Below, in pieces: positions 7,901 to 55,161 of a stretch of 64,000 nucleotides of DNA. The DNA comes from Planctomycetota bacterium. Its GTDB lineage: Bacteria; Planctomycetota; UBA1135; UBA2386. Position numbers and translations under genes: made by a program. How positions within the stretch are numbered: the first letter of the stretch is position 1; every line of letters starts with the position of its first letter. The notes under the pieces are model-generated. The model was given only the letters and a program-made list of their open reading frames with translations. It did not search any database and was not told the DNA's origin. The DNA is taken from NCBI GenBank assembly GCA_025459175.1, contig JALORC010000015.1, positions 124,001-188,000 of the forward strand. Direction: 5' to 3'.

Positions 7901-8786
7901 CGTGCTGGTCGAGCGCGACGCGCGCACGGGGGCAGCGCTGCGGTCGCAGGCGGTCAGCGATGCCGTGGTCGTGATACGGGTGCTCGACGACCAGCGGTTG
8001 GTGGTCGGTACGGAGAACGGGCACGTGGTGTTCTGGGATCGGGAACTGCTGACGCCGATCCTCGACCTGCAGCTGTTCACGGAGCGGGTGCGCAATCTGG
8101 TCGTCGATCCACGCGGCGAGTGGGTGGCCGCGATCGGCTCCGGCGGCGAACCGAAGATCCTGCGGGCGGTCGCCGGCATCGGCATCGGCATCGGCGACCC
8201 GCGGCGCGTGCACGAGCGTCTGCAGGTCGCCGACCTGCGCGATCGCATCCGCGCCGCGATGCTCAAGGTGGCGTGGCGGCCGCACGTGGAGCGGGTACTG
8301 GCCGCGGATCCCGACCTGACTCCTGCGGTACGGGAACTGGCCCGATCGTTGCTGCCACCGCTCAGCCCCTGGGAGATCGGCAACCTGGCGCTCGATCTGG
8401 GCACCGGTGCGGCGCCGTCCGCAACGGACCGGATCTGGATGCGGGAGTTGTTCGCCGCGCTGCAGGAGGCGCTGGTTGCTGGGTGCGACGAGCACGAACA
8501 GCTGGCCCGCATCGGCTGCGCCCTGCTCGCGGTACGGCTCGGGGAACCGCAGGCAGCGTTGCGTGCCTGCGGCGACCTGGCCGTCGCCGCGACCAAGCCG
8601 ACCGACAACGCCGGCCGCTACCTGCCGCTGCTGCACTTCGCGTGCGGCATGGCTCATGGCCAGCTCGGGGATCGGACTGCCGCGCAGCGGGAACGGACCG
8701 CGCTGGCAGCGCTGGTTGCCGGCGCGTTCGCTGCGGACTCGCTGGCCATCCGGTTGTTGCGCGAACTCGACGAGGCGCTGCGGTAG
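4998..8786 (+). CDS. Transmembrane Ser/Thr protein kinase with C-terminal WD40 propeller
   Basis: The product has 1262 residues from the ATG at 4998. The cytoplasmic kinase domain covers about residues 70-360: Gly-rich loop GEGGMGTVW near 76, Lys in VAIKML, catalytic loop HRDLKPGNLM near 227, DFGLA near 247, and APEQLRG. One membrane segment follows (AAALLLLGTLLVPTAISLAI, near 393-415). About 600 residues of WD40-like blades come next, which would lie outside the cytoplasm and sense a signal. The last 200 residues are helical. This PknB-WD40 architecture is typical of planctomycetes. The divergent ECF sigma gene is the natural functional partner. A short in-frame run of GGCATC units near 8176 encodes alternating Gly-Ile. 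The substrate is unknown. Confidence 0.9.
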   Translation: MDSTDDLLAELLDLPPEQWRAGLERVCTEHPACATELRRRFAHLERCGVTEPVALSAPVPGQVPQRFGSYRLLRRLGEGGMGTVWLALHEGLGREVAIKMLRPERLWFDNARERFQREVEAVARLRHPGCVAIQEVGETENVPFFAMEYVAGANCEQILTALRARRPAVSPASSSGHDLLTVLRQGGTQVDSSASALFAGPWTRTAVRIVLAATEALAHAHARGVVHRDLKPGNLMVTPEGRVVVIDFGLAVAAGTSALTREGSQLGSVPYMAPEQLRGFAAAIGPRTDVYALGVCLYELLAMAPAFATGDEQQLRTAILAGGVPPLTERNPAVSRDLAVVVARAMHVDPERRYASALELAADLMAVLEDRSIQARRDALGARLSRWARQRPALATAAALLLLGTLLVPTAISLAIAGQRDRAQVAEQQARRREYGASVSAAATALLAGNGNAARLLLDGCAPDLRGFEWHHLQLAVDTSFLVMPTGTAAVTAVAVTPAGDRLIAGTADGRLRLYALAAGELLREFKAVGKSALATIAFDGDGAELFAVDAEQVLRVYDVSTGQLLRQRPGAAAKERLALPDQVDRVVVARPGGRLTILDARSLAVLRDVDLELRGWPDDNPCVVSGEDVLAGGTRGITIWDSRDGSCRAQLPHAAGTSLLGVSEGAAMVASLHGPDLMAWHLGEQRGSSFSLGGRTPIKVLLPRAGRFVVAPCDTGEILVRDPGTQHVRTLCGHRGAVTSAAVVPRTNTFVTGGADGTVRLWSASASRDRVELTGVGWGRSLAIDAQRRLFTGGDDATVRAVDPDTGAVAWQALHPHWVNAVAVVEAEQLLVASVGTRLWFWSTADGTSRGHLDLPADSSRAMRIAVAPGGNLLAVGGQTGHVTLVDPVARTVLQSRAVHVGMLTEIVFDGPRRLLSGGTDGAVLAMDAAGEAPPQLLCRTSAACRSIAMAGAVLFTSEQALAAPSGVLVERDARTGAALRSQAVSDAVVVIRVLDDQRLVVGTENGHVVFWDRELLTPILDLQLFTERVRNLVVDPRGEWVAAIGSGGEPKILRAVAGIGIGIGDPRRVHERLQVADLRDRIRAAMLKVAWRPHVERVLAADPDLTPAVRELARSLLPPLSPWEIGNLALDLGTGAAPSATDRIWMRELFAALQEALVAGCDEHEQLARIGCALLAVRLGEPQAALRACGDLAVAATKPTDNAGRYLPLLHFACGMAHGQLGDRTAAQRERTALAALVAGAFAADSLAIRLLRELDEALR

Positions 8787-13247: not shown

Positions 13248-14380
13248 GCATCGCCACCACGGGATCGAGGCGCGCGGCCCGGATCGCCGGGGTCGCCGCC
13301 GCCAGCACCCCGGTCAGCGTCGCCAGCACCGCCGTCGACAGGAACAGGCTCGGATCGAGCGGGATCACGAACATCGGCGTGCCGTCGGGGTTCTTCGCCA
13401 ACACCGTCCACACCTGCAGCAGGCCGGCCCCGAACAGCGAACCGGCGACCGAACCGAGCAGCCCGACCCACCGACACCACCAGCACGCTGGCGATGCCGG
13501 CCGCCACCGACAGCCCGACGAACAGGCGGATCAGGAGGCTGGAGAACTCCTGCGCCTTCAGGCTGGCGAAGAACTGGCTGTTGGCGGCGATCCACGAGAT
13601 CGCCTCCAGACCGGTCTGCGCCGTGATCGAACGCGCCACCTGTTCGGCCGCGTACGGATCGATCGCGGTGAGATCGATGCCGGAGACGCCGCCGGTGAGG
13701 TCGAGCAGGTTCTGCGCCGTGGTCAGCAGCACGTAGGCGGTGCGCTTGTTGGCACCGCGGCTGCCGAGATCGAACAGCCCGCACACGTTCAGCGTCAGCC
13801 GCGCGCCGGACAGGTTCGCCAGCCGCAGCTTGTCGCCGACCTCGACGCCCATCTCGGTGGCGAAGTCGGTGCCGACGAGCAGGTCGGTGTTGGTCATCTG
13901 CCAGCTGCCGGCGACCATCTTCTCGGGCAGCGGCACGATGCGCGCGTAGGGCTCGGGCTCGATGCCGATCAGCTGGATCGACTGGGTCGCGTCGCCGCGG
14001 ATCACGAACGCCGGCCCGCTGACGGTGGGCGACACCGCGGCGATGTCCTGGCGCCGCTGCAGCTGGTCGCGCACCTTCTGCCACTGGTCGATCGAGTTCA
14101 TCCGCTGCGACGGCAGCTGCACGGCCGCGATCACCAGCTCGCCGGCCGCCGGTCCGCGCTGCGGCGTCGCGCGCTGGCGCGGCCGATCGATCGTGATGTG
14201 CGGCTGCGAACTCATGATGCGATGGAACAGGTTGGCCTGCAGCCCACCGAGCAGCGCCGACATGAACACGATCACGCCGACGCCGATGGCGACGCCGCTG
14301 ACGATGAACACCGACTGCATGCGGCCCTCGCGCAGGAACCGCACCGCGGTCATCCACTCGAACGGCGTGCCGAGGCTCAC
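13240..14380 (-). pseudogene. FtsX/MacB-family ABC permease, disrupted by an internal deletion and frameshift
   Basis: The GTG at 14380 overlaps the stop of the adaptor gene (GTGA). One frame gives a normal N-terminal half: FLREGRMQSVFIVSGVAIGVGVIVFMSALL, a periplasmic domain, then the start of the second membrane helix, AGIASVLVVSV, at about 13475. There the frame breaks. The family's end, GLLGSVAGSLFGAGLLQVW through [13 protein letters not shown]-stop, continues in another frame to 13240. The segment normally between (the REIGILRAMG motif and loop, about 29 residues) is absent. A deletion of roughly 86-88 bp between short GGTGGTCGG-like repeats would explain both losses. It is a real mutation or an assembly collapse. 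Confidence 0.85.
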
Positions 14381-15645
14381 GGCTCCACCTGCGGCCGCAC
14401 GCGGTGACCGACGGCCGGGTCCGTGGGGCCGGCGAGCAGCACCACGTCGTCCGCCGCGAGCCCGGTCAGGATCTCGATCTGCGCCTCGCCGCGGGCGCCC
14501 AGCTGCACCGCGCGCCGCTGCACGCGGCCGCCCTCGACCAGCAGCACGTACGGCGCCTTGCCGCTGGCGTCGTGCAGCGCCGCCGGCGGCAGACCGAGCG
14601 CATCGGTGCGACGGTCGACCTCGATGTCGACCGACACCGTCATGTCCTGGCGCAGGATGTCGGGTGGGTCGATCACGTCGAGCTTGACCTCGACCGAGCC
14701 GCGGCTGGCATCGATGCCGGGGTTGACGAACACCAGGCGGGCGCCGAACCGCCGTTCGGGCCCGGCGTCGGCGGCGGCGAGCGCGAGCTGACCGATGGCC
14801 AGCCGGCGCAGGTTCTTCTCGTCGATCTGCACTACCAGCTGCAGCTTGCCCTTCGGCGACAGCTCCATCAGCACCTGACCGGGTTGCACGACGTCCCCGC
14901 GTTCGACGTTGCGCGCGATCAGGGTGCCGTCGGCCGGGGCCACGATCGCGGTGTGGTCGAGGCCGGCCTGCGCGAGGCGCAGGCTGGCGTTGGCCTGGCG
15001 CAGGTCGCTCTGCGCGATCGCGTGATCGGCGCCACCGGGCCGGGTCGCCTGCAGGCGCAGCCGCGCGGTCTCGTGGTCGCCGTTGGCGATGCTGAGCCCG
15101 CGGTCGGCGACCTCGAGGTCGGACTGGCTGACGAAGCCGTTCGTGCGCAGCTCCTGGGTCCGGGTCCACTGCTGCTGCACGTTGCTGCGGTTCGCCTCGG
15201 CCTCGACCAGCGCCTGTTCGGCGACCGGCAGCAGCAGCTCGCGCAGCTGGTCGACGCGCGCCTCGGCCTGCGCAACCGCCGCGCGCGCCTGCTCCAGTGC
15301 CGCACTCGCATCGGCGTCGTCGAGGCCGATCAGCAGCTGGCCCGCGACCACGATCTGACCTTCGATGACCGGCACCGCGGTCACCCGGCCGGTCAGCTGG
15401 CTGCCGATGCGGATGCGCGCCGGGCTCTCGACGCGGCCACTGGCGACCACGGTCTGCACGATCTCGTGACGTCGCACCAGCACGGCGCGCTGCTGCGGTC
15501 CGAGCACCGCCGGCACGGCCCACCACAGGACGGCGGCGGCGAACAGGACCACGCCGGCGGCCCACCACGCGCGCCGCCGCCACCGCGGCGGCGAGGGCGG
15601 CGCAGGCGCCGGCACAGCCGCCGGCGGATCGATGGAATCGCTCAT
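14377..15645 (-). CDS. Periplasmic adaptor (membrane fusion) protein of an ABC efflux system
   Basis: The 422-residue product has one N-terminal membrane anchor (AWWAAGVVLFAAAVLWWAV, about 26-45), a biotinyl-lipoyl-like half (GRVTAVPVIEGQIVVAGQLL), a helical hairpin (residues 110-200) with QSDLEVADR, the second lipoyl half (APADGTLIARNVERGDVV), and a beta-barrel domain. This is the MacA/HlyD plan. It is 20 bp downstream of the general stress gene and overlaps the permease start, so the adaptor, permease and ATPase form a MacAB-like export unit. Confidence 0.9.
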   Translation of the reverse strand: MSDSIDPPAAVPAPAPPSPPRWRRRAWWAAGVVLFAAAVLWWAVPAVLGPQQRAVLVRRHEIVQTVVASGRVESPARIRIGSQLTGRVTAVPVIEGQIVVAGQLLIGLDDADASAALEQARAAVAQAEARVDQLRELLLPVAEQALVEAEANRSNVQQQWTRTQELRTNGFVSQSDLEVADRGLSIANGDHETARLRLQATRPGGADHAIAQSDLRQANASLRLAQAGLDHTAIVAPADGTLIARNVERGDVVQPGQVLMELSPKGKLQLVVQIDEKNLRRLAIGQLALAAADAGPERRFGARLVFVNPGIDASRGSVEVKLDVIDPPDILRQDMTVSVDIEVDRRTDALGLPPAALHDASGKAPYVLLVEGGRVQRRAVQLGARGEAQIEILTGLAADDVVLLAGPTDPAVGHRVRPQVEP

Positions 15646-26200: not shown

Positions 26201-29200
26201 CAGCAGCAGCGCCTGGGCCCGGGTCCACGCCATCGTCGCCGCGCGTTCGAACGCGTTCGGATCGCGGTGGATCGCCGCGAGTGCGAGCACCTCGGCCCGG
26301 CTCGATGCGACCAGCGTCCAGAACGCGATGCGTGCGGTCTTGCCGGGGGCGATGCGCACCCGCAGCCGCAGGCTGAAGATCGCGTCGAGCACGGTGCCGG
26401 AGCCGCCCGCCAACGGCCGCCCGTCCATCACCGCGCGCGGCGCCCGCACGCTGCCGCCGCGACCGAGGAAGCGTTCGCGATCGGTCTCGAACTGCAGGCT
26501 GCCGACCGGTTCGCCCTCGACCACGGCCTGGTGCGCGACCCAGACCTCGGCGTCGGTCGGGTCGCGGCGGCGGCGGGTCGCCAGCAGCAGGCCGAGTTCG
26601 GCCACGTACTCGGTCTGCACGAACATGCGCGCGAACACCGGATGCGCCGCGTCGGCGGCGGCCGGGCCGAGCACCAGCTCGGTGTACGAGGTCGCTTCCA
26701 GCTCGCGCGTCTGCAGCCCGAGATTGCTCAGCGACACCCGCCGGACCTCGGCATCGTGCTCGGGCGACACCACCACGTGCAGGCAGCTGGCGATCGAACC
26801 GTCGCGGCGCGCGATCTCGGCCCGGCCCTCGGGGAACGCCACTTCGTAGCTGGCGGCCTCGACGCCGGTCGGCAGGTGCGCGACCGACCACACCGCGCCG
26901 CTGCGCGCGTCGCGCAGGTAGATCCAGTTGCCGTGCAGGTCGGTGGTGGCGTCCTCGCGCCAGCGCCCGATCGCCTGTGCGCGCCAGCGCGAACCACCGC
27001 CGCCGGCCGCCGTGAGCACCACGGTGTAGTTGCCGTTCGACAGCAGGTTGGTGCGTGGGATCGGATCGTGCGGGCCGTGGAAGATCCGCATCGGGGCCGG
27101 CGCCGCGGGGTTGCTCGACCATGGGCGCACCGGGTGGGCGTCCGGGGTCAGCGTCAGCACCTGGCGCGGCGGCACCCGTTCCTGCAGCAAGAGTTCGGTG
27201 GCGCGCACCAGCGGCAGCGAATGGAACCGGTCGCGCAGGATGCCGGCATGCAGCACGTTGTCGATCGCGCACAGCGTCATGCCCTGGTGGTGGGCCATGA
27301 ACGCCTGCACGACCGCGACCGCGGTGCCGGGCGGACGGCGCGCCGCGGTGTAGTCGAGGGCCTCGTAGCAGCCGAACGCACCGTTGCCGCCCGCCGCGCC
27401 GATGCGCTGCAGATTGGCGACCGCGGCGCTCGGCATCACCATCGCCGCCAGCGCGGTCGCGTACGGGGCCACCACGGTGTCGGCGGCGAGCCCGCGCTTC
27501 TGACCGAGCCCCGGCACGCCGAAGCTCGAGTACTGGTAGGTGAGGTCGAGGTCGCGGGCGTTGTAGGCGGACTCCGAGATGCCCCACGGGATGCCGAGCC
27601 GTCGGCCGTGGCGGATCTGGCGGCGCAGCATCGAGTGGTTGCTCGCCGCCAGCAGACTGCCCTCGGGCTCGTGCAGCACCAGCTTCGGCATCAGGTACTC
27701 GAACATCGAGCCGGACCACGACACCAGCGCGGTGCCACCGGCCACCGCCACCGCGCCGCGCCCGAGCCGCGCCCAGTGCTTGCCCGGGATGTCGCCCTTG
27801 GCGATCGCGAGGAAACTGGCCAGCCGCGACTCCGAGGCGAGCAGGTCGTAGTGGCTGTCGTCGAGGGTGTCCTCGGCGACCCGATAGCCGATCGAGAACA
27901 GGCAGCGGTGCTGGTCGAACAGGAACCCGAACTGCATCGCCGCACTGTGCGCCTGCAGGCGCTGCTGCAGATCGAGCAGCCGCTGCTGCAGCTCCAGGCC
28001 GAGCGCCGCGGCGCGGTCGAGCGCGGCCACCAGTTCGGGCTCGGCCGCGGCCTCGCCGAGCAGCTGCCGGGCCCGTGCGCAGTAGCCGGGCAACTCGGCC
28101 AGCGTCGGCACCGGTGCGGCGGCGAAGGCCTCGGCGGCGGCATCGGCAGGCGGTTCCGCCGCGCTGTTGCGCGCCTGCCGCACGGCCAGCGGCAGCAGTT
28201 CGGTCATCGTCGCGAGCCGAGCGCGAATGGCGGTGCGGGCGGCGGCGACCCAGCGCGACAGTTCGCCCTCGGCCGCGGCCGGCCGCGGCAACAGAGCGCT
28301 GGCGGCGTCCGCCAACCAGCGCAGGTCCATCAGTTCCGCCGCGATCGCGGCGGGGGTCGCAGCGGTGCGCAGCAGCGCGGTCGCCATCGCCTGCAGCGTG
28401 CTGGTCAGCTGGACCACGCGCGGCGCCTCGGCCGCGGCGACGTCCGGTTCCGCGCGCAGCGTCGCCAGGGCCAGCTGCACCGCGTCGTCGATACCGGTCC
28501 GCCAGGCCGGGTGCAGCAGCGGCTGCTGCGGCCAGTCGCGCACCGCCGCGGCGGTCGCCAGCAGGTGGCCGGCGAGGTTGCCGCTGTCGACGGTCGACAC
28601 GTACTTCGGCGGCAACGGCTGCAGCGTGCGGGTGTCGTACCAGTTGAACAGATGGCCGCGATGGCGTTCGAGGCGGTCGACGGTCCGTAGCGTGGCGTCG
28701 AGGCGGTCGGCGCCGTCGGTCGTGGTCAGCCACGCGAAGTCGTGGGCCGCGGTCACCGACAGCAGGTACAGGCCGATGTTGGTCGGCGACGTGCGCTGCG
28801 CGGTCACCGGCTGCGGCGACAGCTGCAGGTTGTCGGGCGGCAGCGCGTGGTCCTCGTCGCCGACCATCTGCTCGAACCAGGCCCAGGTCCGGCGCGCGAG
28901 CTGGCGCAGCGCGGTGGCGCCGGCGGCATCGACGACGAGGCGACGGCGCCGGCGGCTGCCGCGTTCGGCGACCCACGGCGCGACACTCCACAGCAACAGC
29001 CACGGCCACAGCACCGGGGCGCCGCTGGCACCGATCGTCAGCAGCAGTGCGCCCGCGGCGACCGCGACGCTGGCCTGCATGCGGCCGTAGAAGCCGGCGA
29101 CCCCGAGTGTGCCGGCGCGTTCGGCGGCGGCGGACGTCAACCACTCGAGCAGACGGCGCCGTCGCACGAACAGGCGCACCAGCGTGGTCGCGATCGCATC

Positions 29201-48655: not shown

Positions 48656-48724
48656 TCCCGTTCCGGGACCGACGGCCGCACCCTCGCTGTGGCCCCAGGC
48701 GGCGAGCGCCGATGCAGGCGACGC

Positions 48725-49468
48725 ATGGCGCCGTTGCTGTCGATCGGGGTCGTGGTCGCCACCAGCACGTGGTGGCTCGGTGGTGGCATGCAGGTGGCGC
48801 TGCTGGCGGTGGCTGCAACCGCCGGCAGCGTGTTCGTCATCGGTTGGCGCGCGGCGCGTGGTGCGCTGCCGAAGCCGCCGCTGGCGCAGGCGCTCGGCGA
48901 GCCGGCGCTCGCGGCGGCCGCGAGCCGGCGCGTGGCCGAGCTGCACGCGCTGGGCTTCGAACCGGTCGGGGAAGCGTTCACGGTCAACCAGGCGACGCCC
49001 GGCGTGGTGGTGCCGCTGGTGCATCGCCGCCGCGGGGTGCTGGCGGCGGTCTACGAGTTCCCGGGTGGGCGCAGCAACACCGATCTGGTGACGCCGTTCG
49101 CCGATGGCGGCATGTTGACGACCGCGGCGGTGCACGAAGCGGGGCTGCTGCCATTGCCGGAAGCGATCTGGATGCAGATCGCGGTCGCGGCGCCGGCCGC
49201 CGAACTGCTGCGCCTGCACGAGCAGGGCCTCGCATTCGCGCGCGGTCGCGGGCGCGTGCTCGCAGCGACCGCGACGCTCGATGCGCCCGGCTTCGTTGCG
49301 CTGGTGCTCGACACCCTGCGGCAGCAGCGGGCGCGGTTCGATCGGGCGCCGCTGCGGACCACCGCGGTGATGCTGTGGCGCCTGCTCACCGGCCGGTCCC
49401 CGTACCGGCGACCGGTGCAGGAGCAGCACGGTGGTGGGGCTGGCACGCTGGGGGCCGCCACGACCTGA
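48725..49468 (+). CDS. Hypothetical membrane-anchored protein
   Basis: The 247-residue product starts at the ATG at 48725. Two close hydrophobic helices (MAPLLSIGVVVATSTWWLGG and VALLAVAATAGSVFVIGW) anchor it. A soluble part of about 190 residues follows, with MLTTAAVHEAGLLPLPEAIWMQIAVAA, a central helical stretch, and an Arg-rich end. I do not recognise the family. It follows smc by 69 bp on the same strand and converges on the reverse transcriptase gene 9 bp away. An upstream GTG at 48689 is a possible longer start. Confidence 0.65.
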   Translation: MAPLLSIGVVVATSTWWLGGGMQVALLAVAATAGSVFVIGWRAARGALPKPPLAQALGEPALAAAASRRVAELHALGFEPVGEAFTVNQATPGVVVPLVHRRRGVLAAVYEFPGGRSNTDLVTPFADGGMLTTAAVHEAGLLPLPEAIWMQIAVAAPAAELLRLHEQGLAFARGRGRVLAATATLDAPGFVALVLDTLRQQRARFDRAPLRTTAVMLWRLLTGRSPYRRPVQEQHGGGAGTLGAATT

Positions 49469-49477
49469 TGGCGCCGG

Positions 49478-51106
49478 CTAAGCCGTCTCGTCGCGCCGCA
49501 GCTGCCGCCAGGCGGCGACGAGTGGCTCGGCCTGCTGCGGCGACACCATGCGCACCCACGCCAACATGCCGGCGACATGGTTGGCGAAGTCCGGGTGACC
49601 GTCGCGGTTCTGTGCCTCGAGGCCGGTCTTCGCGGCCTGGTGCAGGATCGCGCGCAATCGCCGTACGGTCTCGCGCGGGATGTGCGGCTGCGCGCCATTG
49701 ACGACGATGCCGGTCACCCGCTGGCAGCTGCTCGGCCGCAGCACCCGCGTCTTCTTCTCGTTGACCGTGAACCCCTCGTCCTGCGCGATGTGCCGGATTC
49801 GCGCCAGCAGGTAGCCGATGCGCGCGAGAGCTTCGGGCTCGGTGGTCGAGAACGACAGGTCGTCGGCGTAGCGCGTGTAGGTGAAGCCGAGCTTGTTGGC
49901 GATGCCCTGGCAACGCGCATCGAGGCGGCGCGCGATCAGGTTGCTCAGCGCGGGGCTCGTCGGCGCGCCTTGCGGCAGGCAACGTGGGCCGGTGGCGACG
50001 TGCAGCGGCCGCCCCGCATACTCGACCAGCCGCCGCGGCGCTTCCGTGCACAACAGCGCGAGGATGGTCGCGGCCGCCGGCGAGTAGCCGAGTTCTTCGA
50101 AACAACCGCGCACACGATGCACGTGGATCGTCGGGAAGAAGTCCTTCAGGTCGCAGTTGACGACCGCCAGCGCCTGCAGGTGCGGCACTGCGTTGCTGAC
50201 CGTGCTGCGGCCCGGCACGAAGCCGTGCGCGGCAGCGTGCGTCGGCACCTTGGCCAGCAGGTTGGCGAGGATCCAGTCCTGCGTCGCGCGCAGGCGCGGC
50301 ATCGGCGCCGCGAGGTCGCGCGTGCCGCCGGAGCGCTTCGGCACCGTGAAGCGCACGTAGTGTGGACGCGCGGTCGCCTCGGCATGGAACGCGAGCCAAC
50401 GCAACTGCGGGATCGGCAACTGCAGGGCCGCGGCGACATCGGCCGGCGTCGCCAGCACCGGCAGGCCGGCGCCGCCGAGTCGCGCGGCGTCGGCGGTGCG
50501 ATCGGCGAGACCCTTCGATACGCCGCGGCCGAGGAACACGATGTCGCCGGCGCGGCGGGCCGCGATCGCGGCGGCACGTTCGGCGCGGCGGCGCGCGGCC
50601 GCGTCCTTCTTCTGCTGTTTGCGCTGCGCTCGCTCGGCGCGATCGTCCTGCACCGCGGCTTCGGCCGCCGCCGCGCCCCCGTCGCGGCGGGGATCGAGCC
50701 GCAGCATCTCGTCGCCGACGCGGTGCATCGCCGCCAGTTCGTCGGCGGACGCGAGGCCGCGGCCGATCATGCCGCGATCGATCAGGTTGGTGCGTTCGTC
50801 GGTCGACGGCGGCACCAGGTCGCGGCGCCCCCACCACGACGCACCACCGAAGATGGACCAGACCGACAGACCGCGCTGGCGCAGCGAACGCTTCAGCTCA
50901 CTGCCGGCGAGCGGCGTCAGGTTGGGTGCCTGCAGGCGCGGACCGATGCCGGCGGCGCGTTCTGGCGCCGCGGGCGGCGTCATCGGCCGCGCGGGGGCCG
51001 CCGAACCGGACGCGATCGGCGCCGGGCGGCCGGGCCGCGCCGTCGGGCGCGGGCGTGGTTTGCCACCGAACAGCAGCTGCAGCAGGCGCTGGATCAGCGA
51101 GATCAA
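49478..51106 (-). CDS. Retron reverse transcriptase (type XIII-like)
   Basis: The 542-residue product starts at a TTG at 51106. The RT core covers about 255-525. Retron hallmarks are present: NAxxH (SNAVPH, near 305), NCDLKDFFPTI, LPQGAPTSPALSNLI, catalytic YADD at 413-416 in YTRYADDLSFS, and VTG in QRVTGIVVNG. The core is preceded by an unusually long N-terminal extension of about 240 residues: a Pro/Arg-rich start, a conserved-looking block (ELKRSLRQRGLSVWSIFGG), and a Lys/Arg/Ala-rich helix near 155-190. It reverse-transcribes the msr-msd RNA encoded 55 bp upstream. The operon with ARM and SWIM proteins matches my recollection of type XIII retrons, which act in phage defence. Confidence 0.92.
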   Translation of the reverse strand: MISLIQRLLQLLFGGKPRPRPTARPGRPAPIASGSAAPARPMTPPAAPERAAGIGPRLQAPNLTPLAGSELKRSLRQRGLSVWSIFGGASWWGRRDLVPPSTDERTNLIDRGMIGRGLASADELAAMHRVGDEMLRLDPRRDGGAAAAEAAVQDDRAERAQRKQQKKDAAARRRAERAAAIAARRAGDIVFLGRGVSKGLADRTADAARLGGAGLPVLATPADVAAALQLPIPQLRWLAFHAEATARPHYVRFTVPKRSGGTRDLAAPMPRLRATQDWILANLLAKVPTHAAAHGFVPGRSTVSNAVPHLQALAVVNCDLKDFFPTIHVHRVRGCFEELGYSPAAATILALLCTEAPRRLVEYAGRPLHVATGPRCLPQGAPTSPALSNLIARRLDARCQGIANKLGFTYTRYADDLSFSTTEPEALARIGYLLARIRHIAQDEGFTVNEKKTRVLRPSSCQRVTGIVVNGAQPHIPRETVRRLRAILHQAAKTGLEAQNRDGHPDFANHVAGMLAWVRMVSPQQAEPLVAAWRQLRRDETA

Positions 51107-51160
51107 GGGTGGGCGCGCAGTGGCGAGTAGGGAAAAGCGAGAGGAAGGCGACCCGAGAAG

Positions 51161-51367
51161 GCACAGCGCCTGACTTCAGACCATGGACCAAGGTCGTTCA
51201 CCCAAGCCGCTGTCGCACCTGTGTGCGGCAAAGGCCTCGGTCCTGCGCTCGGTAGCCGCACACAGGTGCGACAGCGGCAAACCGAACAACGACCTTGGGG
51301 ACGCGTGGGGAGTCAAACGGCATCCGCGGCGGAACGCCGCAGAGGAGTCTCAGACATGGTGCTGTGC
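51161..51367 (-). ncRNA. Retron msr-msd RNA
   Basis: A 207-nt element lies between the SWIM gene stop (51407) and the reverse transcriptase start (51106). Its ends pair: GCACAGC (a1, 51361-51367) with GCTGTGC (a2, 51161-51167). The msr part has a GCGGCG-TTC-CGCCGC hairpin at 51326-51340. The msd part has an outer 11-bp stem (51288-51298 with 51188-51198), then an inner perfect 24-bp stem (51255-51278 with 51206-51229) closing a 25-nt loop. This is the usual order a1-msr-msd-a2. The branching G is expected just after a1 but is not assigned. Position, a1/a2 and the long msd hairpin all fit a retron. Confidence 0.9.
51206..51278. repeat. Perfect 24-bp inverted repeat (msd stem)
   Basis: Arms 51206-51229 and 51255-51278 are exact reverse complements with a 25-nt spacer. 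The central part reads GCACCTGTGTGC. It forms the msd hairpin and would be the double-stranded part of the single-copy DNA (msDNA). Confidence 0.95.
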
Positions 51368-51406
51368 GGACGTACGGGCCTCCTTCCTCTCGTGGAATGT
51401 CATGGT

Positions 51407-53104
51407 TCAGCTCGGCAACCAGCGGGCGACCAGCTGCTGCCAGGGATCGGTGACGGCGCTCGCCGGCGACGTCGCGGTGGCGACCATACGCAGCGCGAGC
51501 AGATGGCGGCAAGGACCATTGCGCAGTCCCGCCCGGCGATGGTGCGAGCAGCCGCACTTGCCGCGCAGCAGCCGCTGGTCGGCGTCGAACAGCACTTCGC
51601 AAGCCTGCTTGCCGACGGTGCCGCTGGCGAACGTGCGATCGGTCGCCAGCACCTCGCGACGATCGACGCGCGCTTCGCCGCGTTCGACGGCGCCACAGGC
51701 CGCGAGCAGCTCGGGACTCGGACCGCCGACATCGGCCTCGCCGAGCGGCTGCGGCAGGATCGAGCGGAACCGGTAGACGCCGGCGGCGAGGTCGAACAGC
51801 ACCTGGCCGGTGCGCGCCAGGTGATCGAGCGCGGTCAACAACTCGGCCGCCGGCAAGCGCGACAACTCGAGCAGCTGGCGGCGGGTCAGGCTGCGGCGCT
51901 GCTGCAGCAGGCCGGCGGTGATCGCGATCGCATCGCGCCCGGCCACCGTCGGCGGCCGCAGCGTGTCGAGCGACGATCCGCGCGTCCAGTCGTTGCTGGT
52001 CCAGCCGGACAGGCCGAGCGTCAGCGTCATCTCGCCCATGCCGACGACCCAGAACGACGGCAGGCCGGTGCCGACCAGGTGCACGGTGATCGAATCGGCG
52101 AGCGGCAGCACGCGCGCCAACACCATCAGCCGGCGGCGGCCCCAGATGCGGATCGGCTCGAGGCTCGGGCCGTCGTGGCGACAGCCATGTGCGACCAGGC
52201 GTTCACCGAACGGTTCCAGCACCACCGCCGGCGGCTGGCCCTCGACCAGTTCGAAGCGCAGCGCGCGCGGCGAACTGCGTTCGCGGTGCCGGCGCAGGAA
52301 CGCGAGCAGCGAGTAGACCAGTTCGCGCGGCAGCCGGATCGTCGTCGCCGGCAGGCCGGCGGCGACCTGCACCTGCATCAGGCCGCGCAGCCAGCCGGCG
52401 GGCAGGTCGATCTTCTCCTCGCGGTAGTCGGCGTTGCCGGCGGTGCGCACCGTGAATCCGGCCGGATCGACCAGGAAACGCGTCTGCCGGTAGGTGCGCA
52501 GCTGCTGGAACTGTTCGTACAGCGCCGGCGAGTAGTCGACGTTGGTGGTGCCGAGCTGCACGCCGGCCGCCGGCGCGAAGCCGTCGTCGCGGCGCACCGA
52601 CAGACAGCCGTAGGCCGACTCGTCGACCGAGAAGCCCTCGAACAGGCAGGCGTCGTCGGCGACCGTGACGATCGGATCGCACGGCGTCAACATGCGCCAC
52701 AGCTCGGGGTCCTCGCGCATCAGCAACCGCGAATACTGGTCGCGTAGCTGCCAGTAGCGTTTGGTCGCCTTGCCGAACTCGCGGCGCAGCTCCGGTGTGA
52801 TGCCGACCGCGGCATCGCCCTGCTGCTGCGCCGCGGTGCGCGCGTCGCGGCGGATCTGCTGTTCGCGCGATTGCTGGCCGGCCCGCCACTGCCGCCACGC
52901 GGTGCGATCCGGTTTGGCCACGCGCAGGTCGCAGACCACGACGTCGTGCAGCGCCGAGATCGCTTCGCGGAAGCGCAGCGGCTGGCGCAACGCTGCATCG
53001 AAGGCAACCGGCTCACGACACAGGTTCGGCGCGAACGACAGCTGGGCGGCGTCGCCGTGCACCGCGAGGCCGGAGCGACCGAGGTAACCGAGCGAGAGGT
53101 TCAC
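51407..53104 (-). CDS. Retron-associated SWIM zinc-finger protein (WHSWIM type)
   Basis: The 565-residue product starts at the GTG at 53104, overlapping the ARM gene stop (GTGA). The C-terminus has a SWIM finger: CGC then, after about ten residues, GPCRHLLALRM (CxC...CxH, near 525-550). Before it are helix-rich segments with winged-helix-like pattern (RRQLLELSRLPAAELLTALDHLARTGQVLFD) and a beta-rich middle. SWIM domains bind nucleic acid or protein. In retron operons such a protein, together with an ARM-repeat protein, is thought to be the effector or its guard. It lies immediately upstream of msr-msd. Confidence 0.85.
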   Translation of the reverse strand: MNLSLGYLGRSGLAVHGDAAQLSFAPNLCREPVAFDAALRQPLRFREAISALHDVVVCDLRVAKPDRTAWRQWRAGQQSREQQIRRDARTAAQQQGDAAVGITPELRREFGKATKRYWQLRDQYSRLLMREDPELWRMLTPCDPIVTVADDACLFEGFSVDESAYGCLSVRRDDGFAPAAGVQLGTTNVDYSPALYEQFQQLRTYRQTRFLVDPAGFTVRTAGNADYREEKIDLPAGWLRGLMQVQVAAGLPATTIRLPRELVYSLLAFLRRHRERSSPRALRFELVEGQPPAVVLEPFGERLVAHGCRHDGPSLEPIRIWGRRRLMVLARVLPLADSITVHLVGTGLPSFWVVGMGEMTLTLGLSGWTSNDWTRGSSLDTLRPPTVAGRDAIAITAGLLQQRRSLTRRQLLELSRLPAAELLTALDHLARTGQVLFDLAAGVYRFRSILPQPLGEADVGGPSPELLAACGAVERGEARVDRREVLATDRTFASGTVGKQACEVLFDADQRLLRGKCGCSHHRRAGLRNGPCRHLLALRMVATATSPASAVTDPWQQLVARWLPS

Positions 53105-54855
53105 GACGTGGCTCCCGCGGACACGAACCGCAGTTCGGGGAACGCTGCCTGCACGGCCGGCTGCAGCGACGGCAGGCGATCGACTGCCTGCACCAGCGCC
53201 GCGAGGCCGATGCGCGCCTCCGCCGCACGCACCGAACGCACCGCGACCGCGAACACCGGCAGCAGCGCCGCGGCATCGGCCGGCTCGGCGGCGACGGCGC
53301 GCGCCAGCTGGTGCAGCGCCTGCACCTTGGCCCGACCACCGCGATGCACGTTCAGCAGCACGGCGGTCCACAGCGGCTGCAGGTCGCGGAGGTGCAGCGG
53401 TGGCGTGCCGGCGCGAGCATCGAGCGCGTGCACCAGCCGGGTGCGCACGTCGTCGAACGGCGATTCGAGCAGGCGCGACCACAGCCCGGCATCGGCGTGC
53501 GCGGTCGCATGGCCGGCGAGCCACGCGAACGCCGCCGCGCGCACCGCCGGCAGCGCCGCATCGAAGAACGGCATCACGCGGGCCAGCGTGTAGTGCGCGG
53601 CATCGCCGAGCACACCGAGCGCCCACGCGGTTGACGTCGCGGCGACGCTGGCACAACGCACGTCGGCGAGGCGGGGCAATGCGTCGGCATCGAGCACCTT
53701 CGCCGCGTGGGCCCGCACCAGCTCGACGCCGAGCTCCGCGACCGGCGTCGCTTCGCGGCAGGCCAGCAGCAGGCATTCCGCCAGCGACAACGTCTGCAGC
53801 GCCGCCGGGTGCAACCGCGCCGCCGCCACGATCGACGGCAACGCCAGCGCACTGCGGATCGACAGCAATCGCAACCAACCGGCGCCGTCGATGCTGCCGC
53901 TGTCGCTCGATTGCGCCAGGGTCGCCGCCGCGAACGCCTGCACCTCGTCGTCGTCGTGCTCGAACAGCGGCAGCAGGCGATCGACGCTCAGCAGCCGCAA
54001 CCGTTCGGCGTGCTGTTCGCGCAGCAACGCGATGGCCCACGTGCGCACGAGCCGCGCCCGGGCACGAGCCAGCAGGTCGAGCAATGCCCTGCACGCGGCA
54101 TCGCTGCGCCACGCGGTCGGGTGCAACGGCGCCGGGGTCAGGTCCGCCAGCGATCGGCCCTCGGCGAGAGCGGCGTGCGCGACGCCGAACTCGAGCGCCG
54201 CGTGGCCGTGGTAGGCGAGCTGCAGCAGACACCACGAGTCGAGGATCGCCAGACCCGAGTCGAGGTCGTCGTCGCGATAGCGCACCAGCGCCGTAACAGC
54301 CGCCAACACGTACGCATCGGCATCGCGGAAGCCCAGGTGCCGCAGCACGCGCAGCGCGCGGCGGCGGAGGTAGAGCCGCGTGCGCAGCGAGAACTGCCGG
54401 CCATCGCCGGGCCGCTTGCCGGCGAGCGCCGGCTTGCCGCCTGCGGTCGGCACCGCACCGCGCAGGCCACCGGTGGCGTGACCGATCTGCTCGACGCGTT
54501 CCGCGGTGCGCGTCGCCGCATCCCAGGTGTGTCGAGTCCGCAGCTTGCGCCGCACCATGCAGTCGAAGCGATGCAGGAAGGCGCCGACCATCGCGAAGTC
54601 GAGGCGGCGTTCGGCGGCCTTGTAAAGTCGCTTCACGACGACGTTGTGGCCCGGTGTGGCCCACGGTGACTCCAGGTAGCGCCACTGCATCGCCATCGCC
54701 CACGGTCGCGGATCGACCTTCCAGCGCTCCACCAGCCCTTGCAGCTTCGAGGCATCGTCGACCAGCAGCAACTCGTCGACGAAGCGGTCGTCGGCGCTCG
54801 CGAAGAACTCGTCGAGCAACACGTGCGAGCCGCGGCGCTTCTGGTTCGATGGCAT
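53101..54855 (-). CDS. Retron-associated ARM/HEAT-repeat protein
   Basis: The 584-residue product starts at the ATG at 54855. It is almost entirely helical. After an N-terminal region (WKVDPRPWAMAMQWRYLESP, then a basic RTRLYLRRRALRVLRHLG helix) come repeated two-helix units of 35-40 residues (LLDLLARARARLVRTWAIALLR, LLPLFEHDDDEVQAFAAATLAQ, VMPFFDAALPAVRAAAFAWLAGHA, LLESPFDDVRTRLVHALDA). That is an ARM/HEAT solenoid. It is the first gene of the retron operon. A poor sigma70-like promoter (TTGCCA, 17 bp, TAGCCT) is visible 25-55 bp upstream. The exact role in retron defence is not established here. Confidence 0.8.
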   Translation of the reverse strand: MPSNQKRRGSHVLLDEFFASADDRFVDELLLVDDASKLQGLVERWKVDPRPWAMAMQWRYLESPWATPGHNVVVKRLYKAAERRLDFAMVGAFLHRFDCMVRRKLRTRHTWDAATRTAERVEQIGHATGGLRGAVPTAGGKPALAGKRPGDGRQFSLRTRLYLRRRALRVLRHLGFRDADAYVLAAVTALVRYRDDDLDSGLAILDSWCLLQLAYHGHAALEFGVAHAALAEGRSLADLTPAPLHPTAWRSDAACRALLDLLARARARLVRTWAIALLREQHAERLRLLSVDRLLPLFEHDDDEVQAFAAATLAQSSDSGSIDGAGWLRLLSIRSALALPSIVAAARLHPAALQTLSLAECLLLACREATPVAELGVELVRAHAAKVLDADALPRLADVRCASVAATSTAWALGVLGDAAHYTLARVMPFFDAALPAVRAAAFAWLAGHATAHADAGLWSRLLESPFDDVRTRLVHALDARAGTPPLHLRDLQPLWTAVLLNVHRGGRAKVQALHQLARAVAAEPADAAALLPVFAVAVRSVRAAEARIGLAALVQAVDRLPSLQPAVQAAFPELRFVSAGATS

Positions 54856-55161
54856 GGTTCCGCGGCGCGCAGGCTAGGTGACCCTGCCGTGCATGGCAAC
54901 GGATCGTGGCCAAGGCGCCAGGCCACCCACGGCGCTGCAGGTCGAGCACCGCGAGTTCGGTGCTCGGCCACCGGACGGAATGGGGTGCCGGGTCGGGGTT
55001 GCCGGCGGCGACAGTGAGGGACCCGCCTCCGTCCGGATGTCGTCGATCCCGACGGGATTCGGACCGTTCCAGGCCCCAGGGGAAGTGCAATCCCCGGCGC
55101 CGATGGTGGCACGCGGCTTGCCTGCGCGGTGTTCGCCGCCATCCCGTTGCCACCAGAGAAC
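54856..55161. other. Divergent intergenic region of the retron operon and the ELWxxDGT gene
   Basis: These 306 bp hold the promoters for both sides. On the minus side TTGCCA and TAGCCT (17 bp apart) precede the ARM gene. On the plus side the sigma54-like site at 55108 precedes the ELWxxDGT gene. No further gene is supported. Confidence 0.5.
55108..55121 (+). promoter_or_regulatory. Sigma54-type -24/-12 site of the ELWxxDGT gene
   Basis: TGGCACGCGGCTTGCC is one of the best matches in the window (TGGCACG-N4-TTGC, GG-N10-GC). The start would be near 55133, about 30 nt before the GTG at 55162. Confidence 0.58.

Follow-up and report, generated by a model that had tools for sequence, protein, structure and literature searches.

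A type XIII retron operon in a planctomycete, with a covariation-supported msr-msd RNA and a predicted clamp-like SWIM protein

Operon Organization and Type Assignment

We analyzed a 64,000-nucleotide stretch of DNA from a Planctomycetota bacterium (GenBank assembly GCA_025459175.1, contig JALORC010000015.1, positions 124,001 to 188,000; the whole stretch is called the window) and found in it what is, judged from the sequence, almost certainly a complete and self-contained type XIII retron operon. Four elements follow one another on the minus strand: a gene for a HEAT/ARM alpha-solenoid protein (53101–54855, an open reading frame of 584 amino acids with an ATG start), a gene for a SWIM protein (51407–53104, an open reading frame of 565 amino acids with a GTG start), an msr-msd RNA gene (51392–51138, recognized by its fold, inverted repeats, and covariation), and a gene for a retron reverse transcriptase (RT; 49478–51106, 542 amino acids, TTG start). 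An earlier reading of the letters alone by a model (the original prediction) had placed these elements in this order and joined the first two genes by an overlap; each lies where it was predicted, and the reading frames of the HEAT/ARM and SWIM genes do share the letters GTGA. Coding is supported for all three genes by a third-codon-position G+C content of 0.88–0.90. The RT reading frame has no start codon but this TTG between its opening and 20 codons beyond. The operon stretch is single-copy in the window’s genome.

All three members of the family set that marks type XIII were matched when the products were searched with PADLOC, a check that the original prediction had named when it proposed a type XIII retron from the combination of ARM protein, SWIM protein, and RT. 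The models RT_XIII (E = 7.5e-158; runner-up RT_other, 1.9e-106), HEAT-ARM_XIII (5.6e-165), and SWIM_XIII (8.7e-167) gave the matches, the SWIM and HEAT proteins covering their own type models almost end to end and the RT covering positions 39–426 of 469. Pfam recognized only RVT_1, in the RT (4.2e-21). The accessory genes are conserved beside the RT in the loci of relatives. The system as such belongs to an already known retron type, reportedly set out by Mestre et al. in 2020, and is not a new type; what is new here is the RNA model backed by covariation, the signs that the operon is a mobile module, and the prediction that SWIM_XIII is clamp-like.

Relatives with the Same Gene Set

SWIM_XIII was matched in 32 of 392 genomes across the phylum and in 6 of 101 close relatives, with the window’s own genome and partial and sister matches counted. 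The loci fall into two groups. In the first, the order HEAT-SWIM-noncoding RNA-RT occurs in 12 of the 15 loci that have both SWIM and RT; L005 and L009 carry the RNA between the HEAT and SWIM genes, and L008 is cut by a contig end and shows no hairpin. In the second, the partner is WGR_XIII or a much larger HEAT protein, recognized in 8 of 10 loci. A HEAT-ARM or WGR partner was recognized beside the SWIM gene in 14/15 loci of the first group (L008 excepted) and in 8/10 of the second (L065 and L068 excepted). Viral contigs and phage records held no relative of the SWIM protein. Among plasmids, three records matched it, one of them, from Methylobacterium bullatum, over 80% of the query; this locus is a full system, in which a SWIM gene and a WGR-type HEAT gene are joined by an RT and a hairpin of 15 bp.

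Some matches stand apart from this layout. On one contig (G242:C301), a SWIM gene (13346–14767) and an RT gene (27167–28309) lie ∼12 kb apart, and in two genomes of the same family (G269 and G281), SWIM and RT are on different, partly short contigs. Only one of 14 control genomes, that of the archaeon Methanosarcina acetivorans, matched SWIM_XIII; it also matched RT_XIII, so type XIII might occur in archaea. RT_XIII was also matched by the control genomes of E. coli and Bacteroides ihuae.

The Reverse Transcriptase

The three RT motifs named in the original prediction are all present: NAVPH, an NAxxH motif (within a match at residue 306), YADD at 413, and VTG at 464. All 32 type XIII-like RTs compared have Y[AV]DD and [VI]TG, and 29 of them have NAxxH. 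Among RTs of solved structure, that of the Ec86 retron is nearest (6.4e-43 over residues 207–491), and at its N terminus the window RT is extended by about 200 residues. Speaking against a retron assignment, NCBIfam retron RT models matched the window RT only under their cut-offs. A tree of the RT had been named as a check at the outset, and the tree of 51 rows agrees with a retron RT: support is 100/100 for the split that leaves the four group II intron RTs outside the other 47, and a branch supported at 80/97, under the program’s star (95/80), has all 32 type XIII-like rows on one side. RTs of the first group form one side at 85/88 with six unlabeled rows among them; L008 carries the HEAT-type label there, although its short contig leaves no room to see a HEAT gene. 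The six retron references sit on long branches, which the program flagged, and were placed in two spots.

The window’s genome holds a second RT (G000:C235:1072–2088) that matches RT_XIII at 291 bits. RTs scoring about 310–380 bits with this model recur in many planctomycete genomes, and in the tree, the seven sampled are placed apart from the RTs linked to SWIM.

Structure of the msr-msd RNA

The 300-nt gap between the SWIM and RT genes (51107–51406) houses the noncoding RNA. The segment 51110–51420 folds strongly (z = −7.1, with 0/100 shuffles as good), and it holds an 18-nt inverted repeat, the outer part of the a1 arm (51375–51392, minus strand) being 89% complementary to the outer part of the a2 arm (51138–51155, minus strand) at a distance of 219 nt. 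This agrees with the RNA gene with a1/a2 ends that had been predicted for this gap. Inside the a1/a2 helix, which in the window scores above 100/100 shuffles, lies an msr stem-loop of the form TCTGCGGCG-TTC-CGCCGCGGA (51323–51343, minus strand), followed by the msd (51188–51298, minus strand). The msd consists of an 11-bp basal stem (51288–51298 with 51188–51198) and an upper stem that is a perfect 24-bp inverted repeat (51255–51278 with 51206–51229).

A hairpin was found in 19 of 26 loci, near the RT or between the HEAT and SWIM genes. The msd hairpin arms measure 21–27 nt in 15 loci and 14–27 nt in four loci of the second group. No hairpin near the RT was found at the threshold used in the other seven (L003, L008, L011, L052, L053, L065, and L068). 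We aligned 15 of the 19 hairpins (alignment A1), 14 from loci with HEAT and SWIM and one from L006, where neither was matched; L049, L050, L054, and L062 were omitted as members of the second group, L049 also containing a run of N. Analysis of this alignment with RNAalifold and a pair count gave 36 pairs, 20 of them with two-sided compensatory changes. In total, 90.9% of cells were paired compared with 74.6% after shuffling, and 86 cells were changed on both sides compared with 27; on no measure did any of 500 shuffles reach these values, and in slid controls 36–49% of cells were paired. The msr stem-loop (helix 1) has 99.3% of its cells paired over the 15 sequences, and in the msd (helices 2 and 3), 19 of 27 pairs show two-sided changes. 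The msd arms are paired at 365 of 372 positions, with a mean identity of only 0.48 in the 5′ arm (best of 13 shifts). The a1/a2 helix was tested in 19 loci against shuffles that preserve single-base composition only: at most 1/100 shuffles was as high in 14 of them (0 for the window), 2/100 in L060, and 5/100 in L056, and the helix was no better than chance in L006, L054, and L058. An Rfam scan of the window gave no family above threshold. Judged from these comparisons, the msr-msd RNA with its a1/a2 repeats and msd stem is real.

Directly after the a1 helix, at 51347–51349 (minus strand), stands the trinucleotide GAC, found by eye in 14 of the 15 aligned sequences (GCC in L007). Because of this recurrence, G51349 is predicted to be the branching guanosine, and the multicopy single-stranded DNA (msDNA) would start opposite GAAG at 51174–51177. 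The msd borders would give an msDNA of about 125–135 nt.

Three loci are arranged differently. In L005 (6057–6124) and L009 (3393–3459), the msd hairpin that bears the conserved motif is found between the HEAT and SWIM genes and not before the RT. A further hairpin (7918–7989, 19-nt arms) stands at the start of the L005 RT; the hairpin between HEAT and SWIM was used for A1 because the conserved motif is there. L006 (7540–9488) has a type XIII-like noncoding RNA and an RT with no SWIM or HEAT match in the 7.5 kb upstream.

The SWIM Protein Has a Clamp-Like Predicted Fold

The SWIM protein divides into a clamp-like region (residues ∼34–371), a winged-helix-like region (∼377–447), and a zinc motif, CxC-x12-CxH (517–534). 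Its AlphaFold2 model, built from nine sequences (alignment A2), has a mean predicted local distance difference test score (pLDDT) of 66.3, with ∼72 over residues 31–60 and 141–370 as a mean of ten-residue blocks. Compared with the PDB by Foldseek, the model matched 341 chains at E ≤ 1e-3 (best 1.8e-6); the best 50 of these 341 are all PCNA/DnaN clamp entries, some with loaders, and their chain lengths fit a clamp. VIA aligned residues 34–367 with Z = 13.9 and a root-mean-square deviation of 3.6 Å over 216 of 244 residues. Models without a clear match typically top out at Z 7–8 in VIA; here 536 of 999 chains reached at least Z 8, and the 50 matches listed are all clamps, at Z of at least 13.2. 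In a viral structure library, PCNA was the first row, and many clamps followed further down. Read by eye, the order of structural elements in the model fits two clamp domains. Across 29 SWIM homologues, R46, R203, and R325 are arginine in 29/29, and R240 is arginine or lysine in 27/29; placed by element order rather than by coordinates, these four residues would sit on four helices lining a ring.

We aligned the SWIM proteins in two sets drawn from 44 loci with SWIM matches, A4 with 28 loci and the window and A5 with 9 loci; seven fragmentary, broken, or masked sequences (L062, L069, L070, L074, L078, L080, and L082) were omitted. Weak profile matches point to a winged helix in the C-terminal part. 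The full CxC..CxH motif lies within the last 120 residues in 25 of the 29 aligned homologues. In L058 (6801–8480) and L060 (6627–8309), the zinc ligands are lost, with CxC and CxH altered and the remainder conserved.

Several results weigh against the picture of a clamp fold joined to a winged helix and a zinc motif. In the model, 153 of 565 residues fall below pLDDT 50, so that its overall confidence is middling. The clamp fit requires an inserted helical stretch of ∼80 residues (about 60–140) in the first half, and of the four helices proposed to line the ring, one is acidic (K/R 1.7, D/E 3.4). At the sequence level, no clamp appeared when the A4 and A5 profiles were compared with the PDB at E ≤ 10, when the SWIM protein was searched against the PDB with phmmer and hmmsearch, or among Pfam families at E ≤ 10 for the 29 and 9 SWIM members. 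An hhalign comparison with 25 planctomycete DnaN proteins, PCNA lying outside this profile comparison, gave a probability below 1%. Four of the 29 homologues are without the full zinc motif where it was searched. Known clamp families hardly detect one another by sequence, and because of this, the missing sequence match is weak evidence either way. We call the fold “clamp-like” and not “clamp” because membership of PCNA/DnaN was not found at the sequence level.

These points raise the alternative that the clamp resemblance is a modeling artefact, SWIM_XIII having some other fold and being a plain winged-helix/zinc DNA-binding regulator or effector. The absence of sequence support and the low-pLDDT parts of the model fit such a protein, as does the fact that, among domains in the profile matches, only winged helix and SWIM recur. 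However, an artefact would have to produce the VIA alignment, its uniform run of clamps among the matches listed, and more than half of the chains at or above a level where models without a clear match typically stop, and the clamp-domain element order would have to appear twice, as it does by eye. We therefore regard an artefact as rather unlikely, and a clamp-like fold of the SWIM core, as modeled, as probable.

The HEAT/ARM Partner

The AlphaFold2 model of the HEAT/ARM protein (pLDDT 83.8) is a mostly helical solenoid, and the structures matching it in Foldseek and VIA are, among the matches listed, mainly solenoids, with a best Z of 11.2. An enzymatic identity for this protein was considered and set aside, no enzyme being recognized among those matches. 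Nor was a catalytic effector motif recognized, which counts against the proposed effector reading.

The constancy of the partner bears on a second alternative, in which the clamp-like fold would be a mere scaffold for the HEAT protein and for msDNA, the latter bound as a rod-like duplex, with toxicity coming from the HEAT solenoid or a recruited host enzyme. A HEAT-type partner stands beside the SWIM gene in nearly every locus of both groups, and the msd arms of 21–27 nt, paired but divergent in sequence, are what reading of a duplex alone would lead one to expect. Such a scaffold would nevertheless require a hidden activity, since the HEAT model resembles mainly solenoids. We see it as possible but doubtful.

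A Sister SWIM Family Without a Matching RT

A shorter sister SWIM family is homologous to the SWIM protein over its full length (hhalign probability 100, E = 7e-52), with the zinc motif intact in 9/9 aligned members. In 9 of 11 loci (L071–L081), an open reading frame of DUF6493 type (DUF6493/DUF7824/DUF7825) stands beside it, and where the order was inspected (L072, L075, L076, and L077), the SWIM gene comes first. Within the 6.5–15.5 kb examined, these loci gave no match to the window RT. DUF6493 showed no detectable kinship with HEAT_XIII (probability 2%), and arm-repeat matches were weak and seen in just one of the DUF6493-type proteins scanned. Because this family has a long partner and no RT match, the SWIM protein and a long partner may, on sequence comparison, be a two-protein module that was captured by a retron. 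Retrons that capture self-sufficient systems are described in PMC12548924.

Module Borders and Genomic Neighborhood

The DNA at 49493–54902 is 83.5% identical to that of L001, from the same family. L082, from the same genus, is 90.6% identical over the first 2.3 kb of the module, the part compared, and L002 is 85.5% identical over 1.2 kb of the RT. The border at 54902 is common to L001 and L082, and that at 49493 is common to L001 and L002; in the 400-bp flanks, similarity was no higher than in shuffles in 8/8 comparisons. Because the module is conserved between shared borders amid unrelated flanks, the operon appears to move as one unit. The planctomycete host that the original prediction had assumed fits with a copy of the operon on a Planctomycetota metagenome-assembled contig (JADZDL010000180.1, 83.5% DNA identity).

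The conserved module has a promoter-like site at its 5′ edge, TTGCCA-17-TAGCCT (54871–54899, minus strand). The border begins with CCGTTGCCAT and looks promoter-like in the window, L001, and L082; the latter two have CCGTTGCCAT and a TACCCT or TACCTT element at a spacing of 16–17 nt, and farther upstream, the sequences are unrelated. The site would suit sigma-70. Three flanking genes were scanned (smc, an unnamed open reading frame, and an ELWxxDGT repeat gene), and no phage or defense gene was among them. No empty site could be read because the neighboring gene at 48689–49468 occurs in only 2 of 31 genomes, its own included.

The plain character of these neighbors, together with the TTG start of the RT, would suit a retron that has decayed or been domesticated, has lost its defense role, and, for example, regulates host DNA metabolism. 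Yet the reading frames and motifs are all intact, the pairing of the RNA is under selection, and the module stands beside unrelated flanks in relatives. We consider loss of the defense role very improbable.

Proposed Mode of Action

In the general retron model given in PMC12548924, an effector is held by the RT-msDNA complex and freed when phage products disturb the msDNA; single-stranded DNA-binding protein as a retron trigger is reported in PMC12887533. For the window operon, we infer every step that follows the RNA: msDNA synthesis, restraint, trigger, DNA engagement, and defense. Starting at the branching guanosine, predicted to be G51349, the RT would copy the msd portion of the RNA, and the product, a hairpin msDNA, would stay bound to the RT. 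The effector would be a pair made up of the HEAT/ARM solenoid and the SWIM protein with its predicted clamp-fold core, winged helix, and zinc motif. By analogy with better-known retrons, the RT-msDNA complex would keep this pair inactive until a phage product altered or removed the msDNA and the pair was released or reshaped. The clamp-like SWIM subunit might then engage DNA or the replication machinery, and replication would stop, ending in abortive infection.

We give the explanation as a whole, a type XIII retron with a clamp-like SWIM protein in a HEAT/SWIM effector pair restrained by RT-msDNA, about an even chance of being right. That the effector acts through the clamp-like fold, a suggestion drawn from the model, is more tentative. 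Similarly speculative is the fullest form of the idea, in which a retron captured a DNA-clamp module that had stood alone, and the clamp-like effector, kept off DNA by RT-msDNA, would be placed on DNA at attack and jam or divert replication.

The original prediction had called the effector mechanism of this type poorly described, and in a search of the open-access literature, we likewise found none for type XIII retrons; the same search, by title and abstract, gave no retron linked with a sliding clamp or PCNA. PMC11953036 mentions a type XIII retron, called by PADLOC, in a Variovorax strain that was tested with phages. Retron effectors named in the parts of the literature consulted are ATPases, nucleases, cold-shock proteins, DNA-binding proteins, proteases, TIR proteins, and transmembrane proteins. 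If SWIM is a clamp-fold protein, it would be an effector kind outside those named there, link retrons with the replisome, and open type XIII to direct testing. The clamp resemblance gives a first testable idea of how type XIII acts, one that is surprising and cheap to test. The locus also offers a well-supported type XIII RNA structure with a predicted branching guanosine and msd borders.

Comparison with Known Systems

The window operon has the same three protein families as type XIII retrons and the noncoding RNA between SWIM and RT, with no defining difference. Type XIII relatives themselves vary, in the place of the RNA (between HEAT and SWIM in L005 and L009) and in the partner (WGR or a larger HEAT protein in L049–L054, L062, and L096). 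Ec86 (Eco1) has the closest structurally solved RT, from which the window RT differs by its ∼200 extra N-terminal residues; the effector genes of Ec86 differ from those of the window operon. The two-gene SWIM and DUF6493 loci of the same phylum share with the retron pair a homologous SWIM protein and a large partner, whereas they have no match to the window RT, and their partner is not detectably related to HEAT_XIII. With the PCNA/DnaN clamps, residues 34–371 of the SWIM protein are predicted to share the same two-domain fold; in contrast to those clamps, with which it has no detectable sequence similarity, the SWIM protein has a helical insert and a fused winged helix and SWIM motif.

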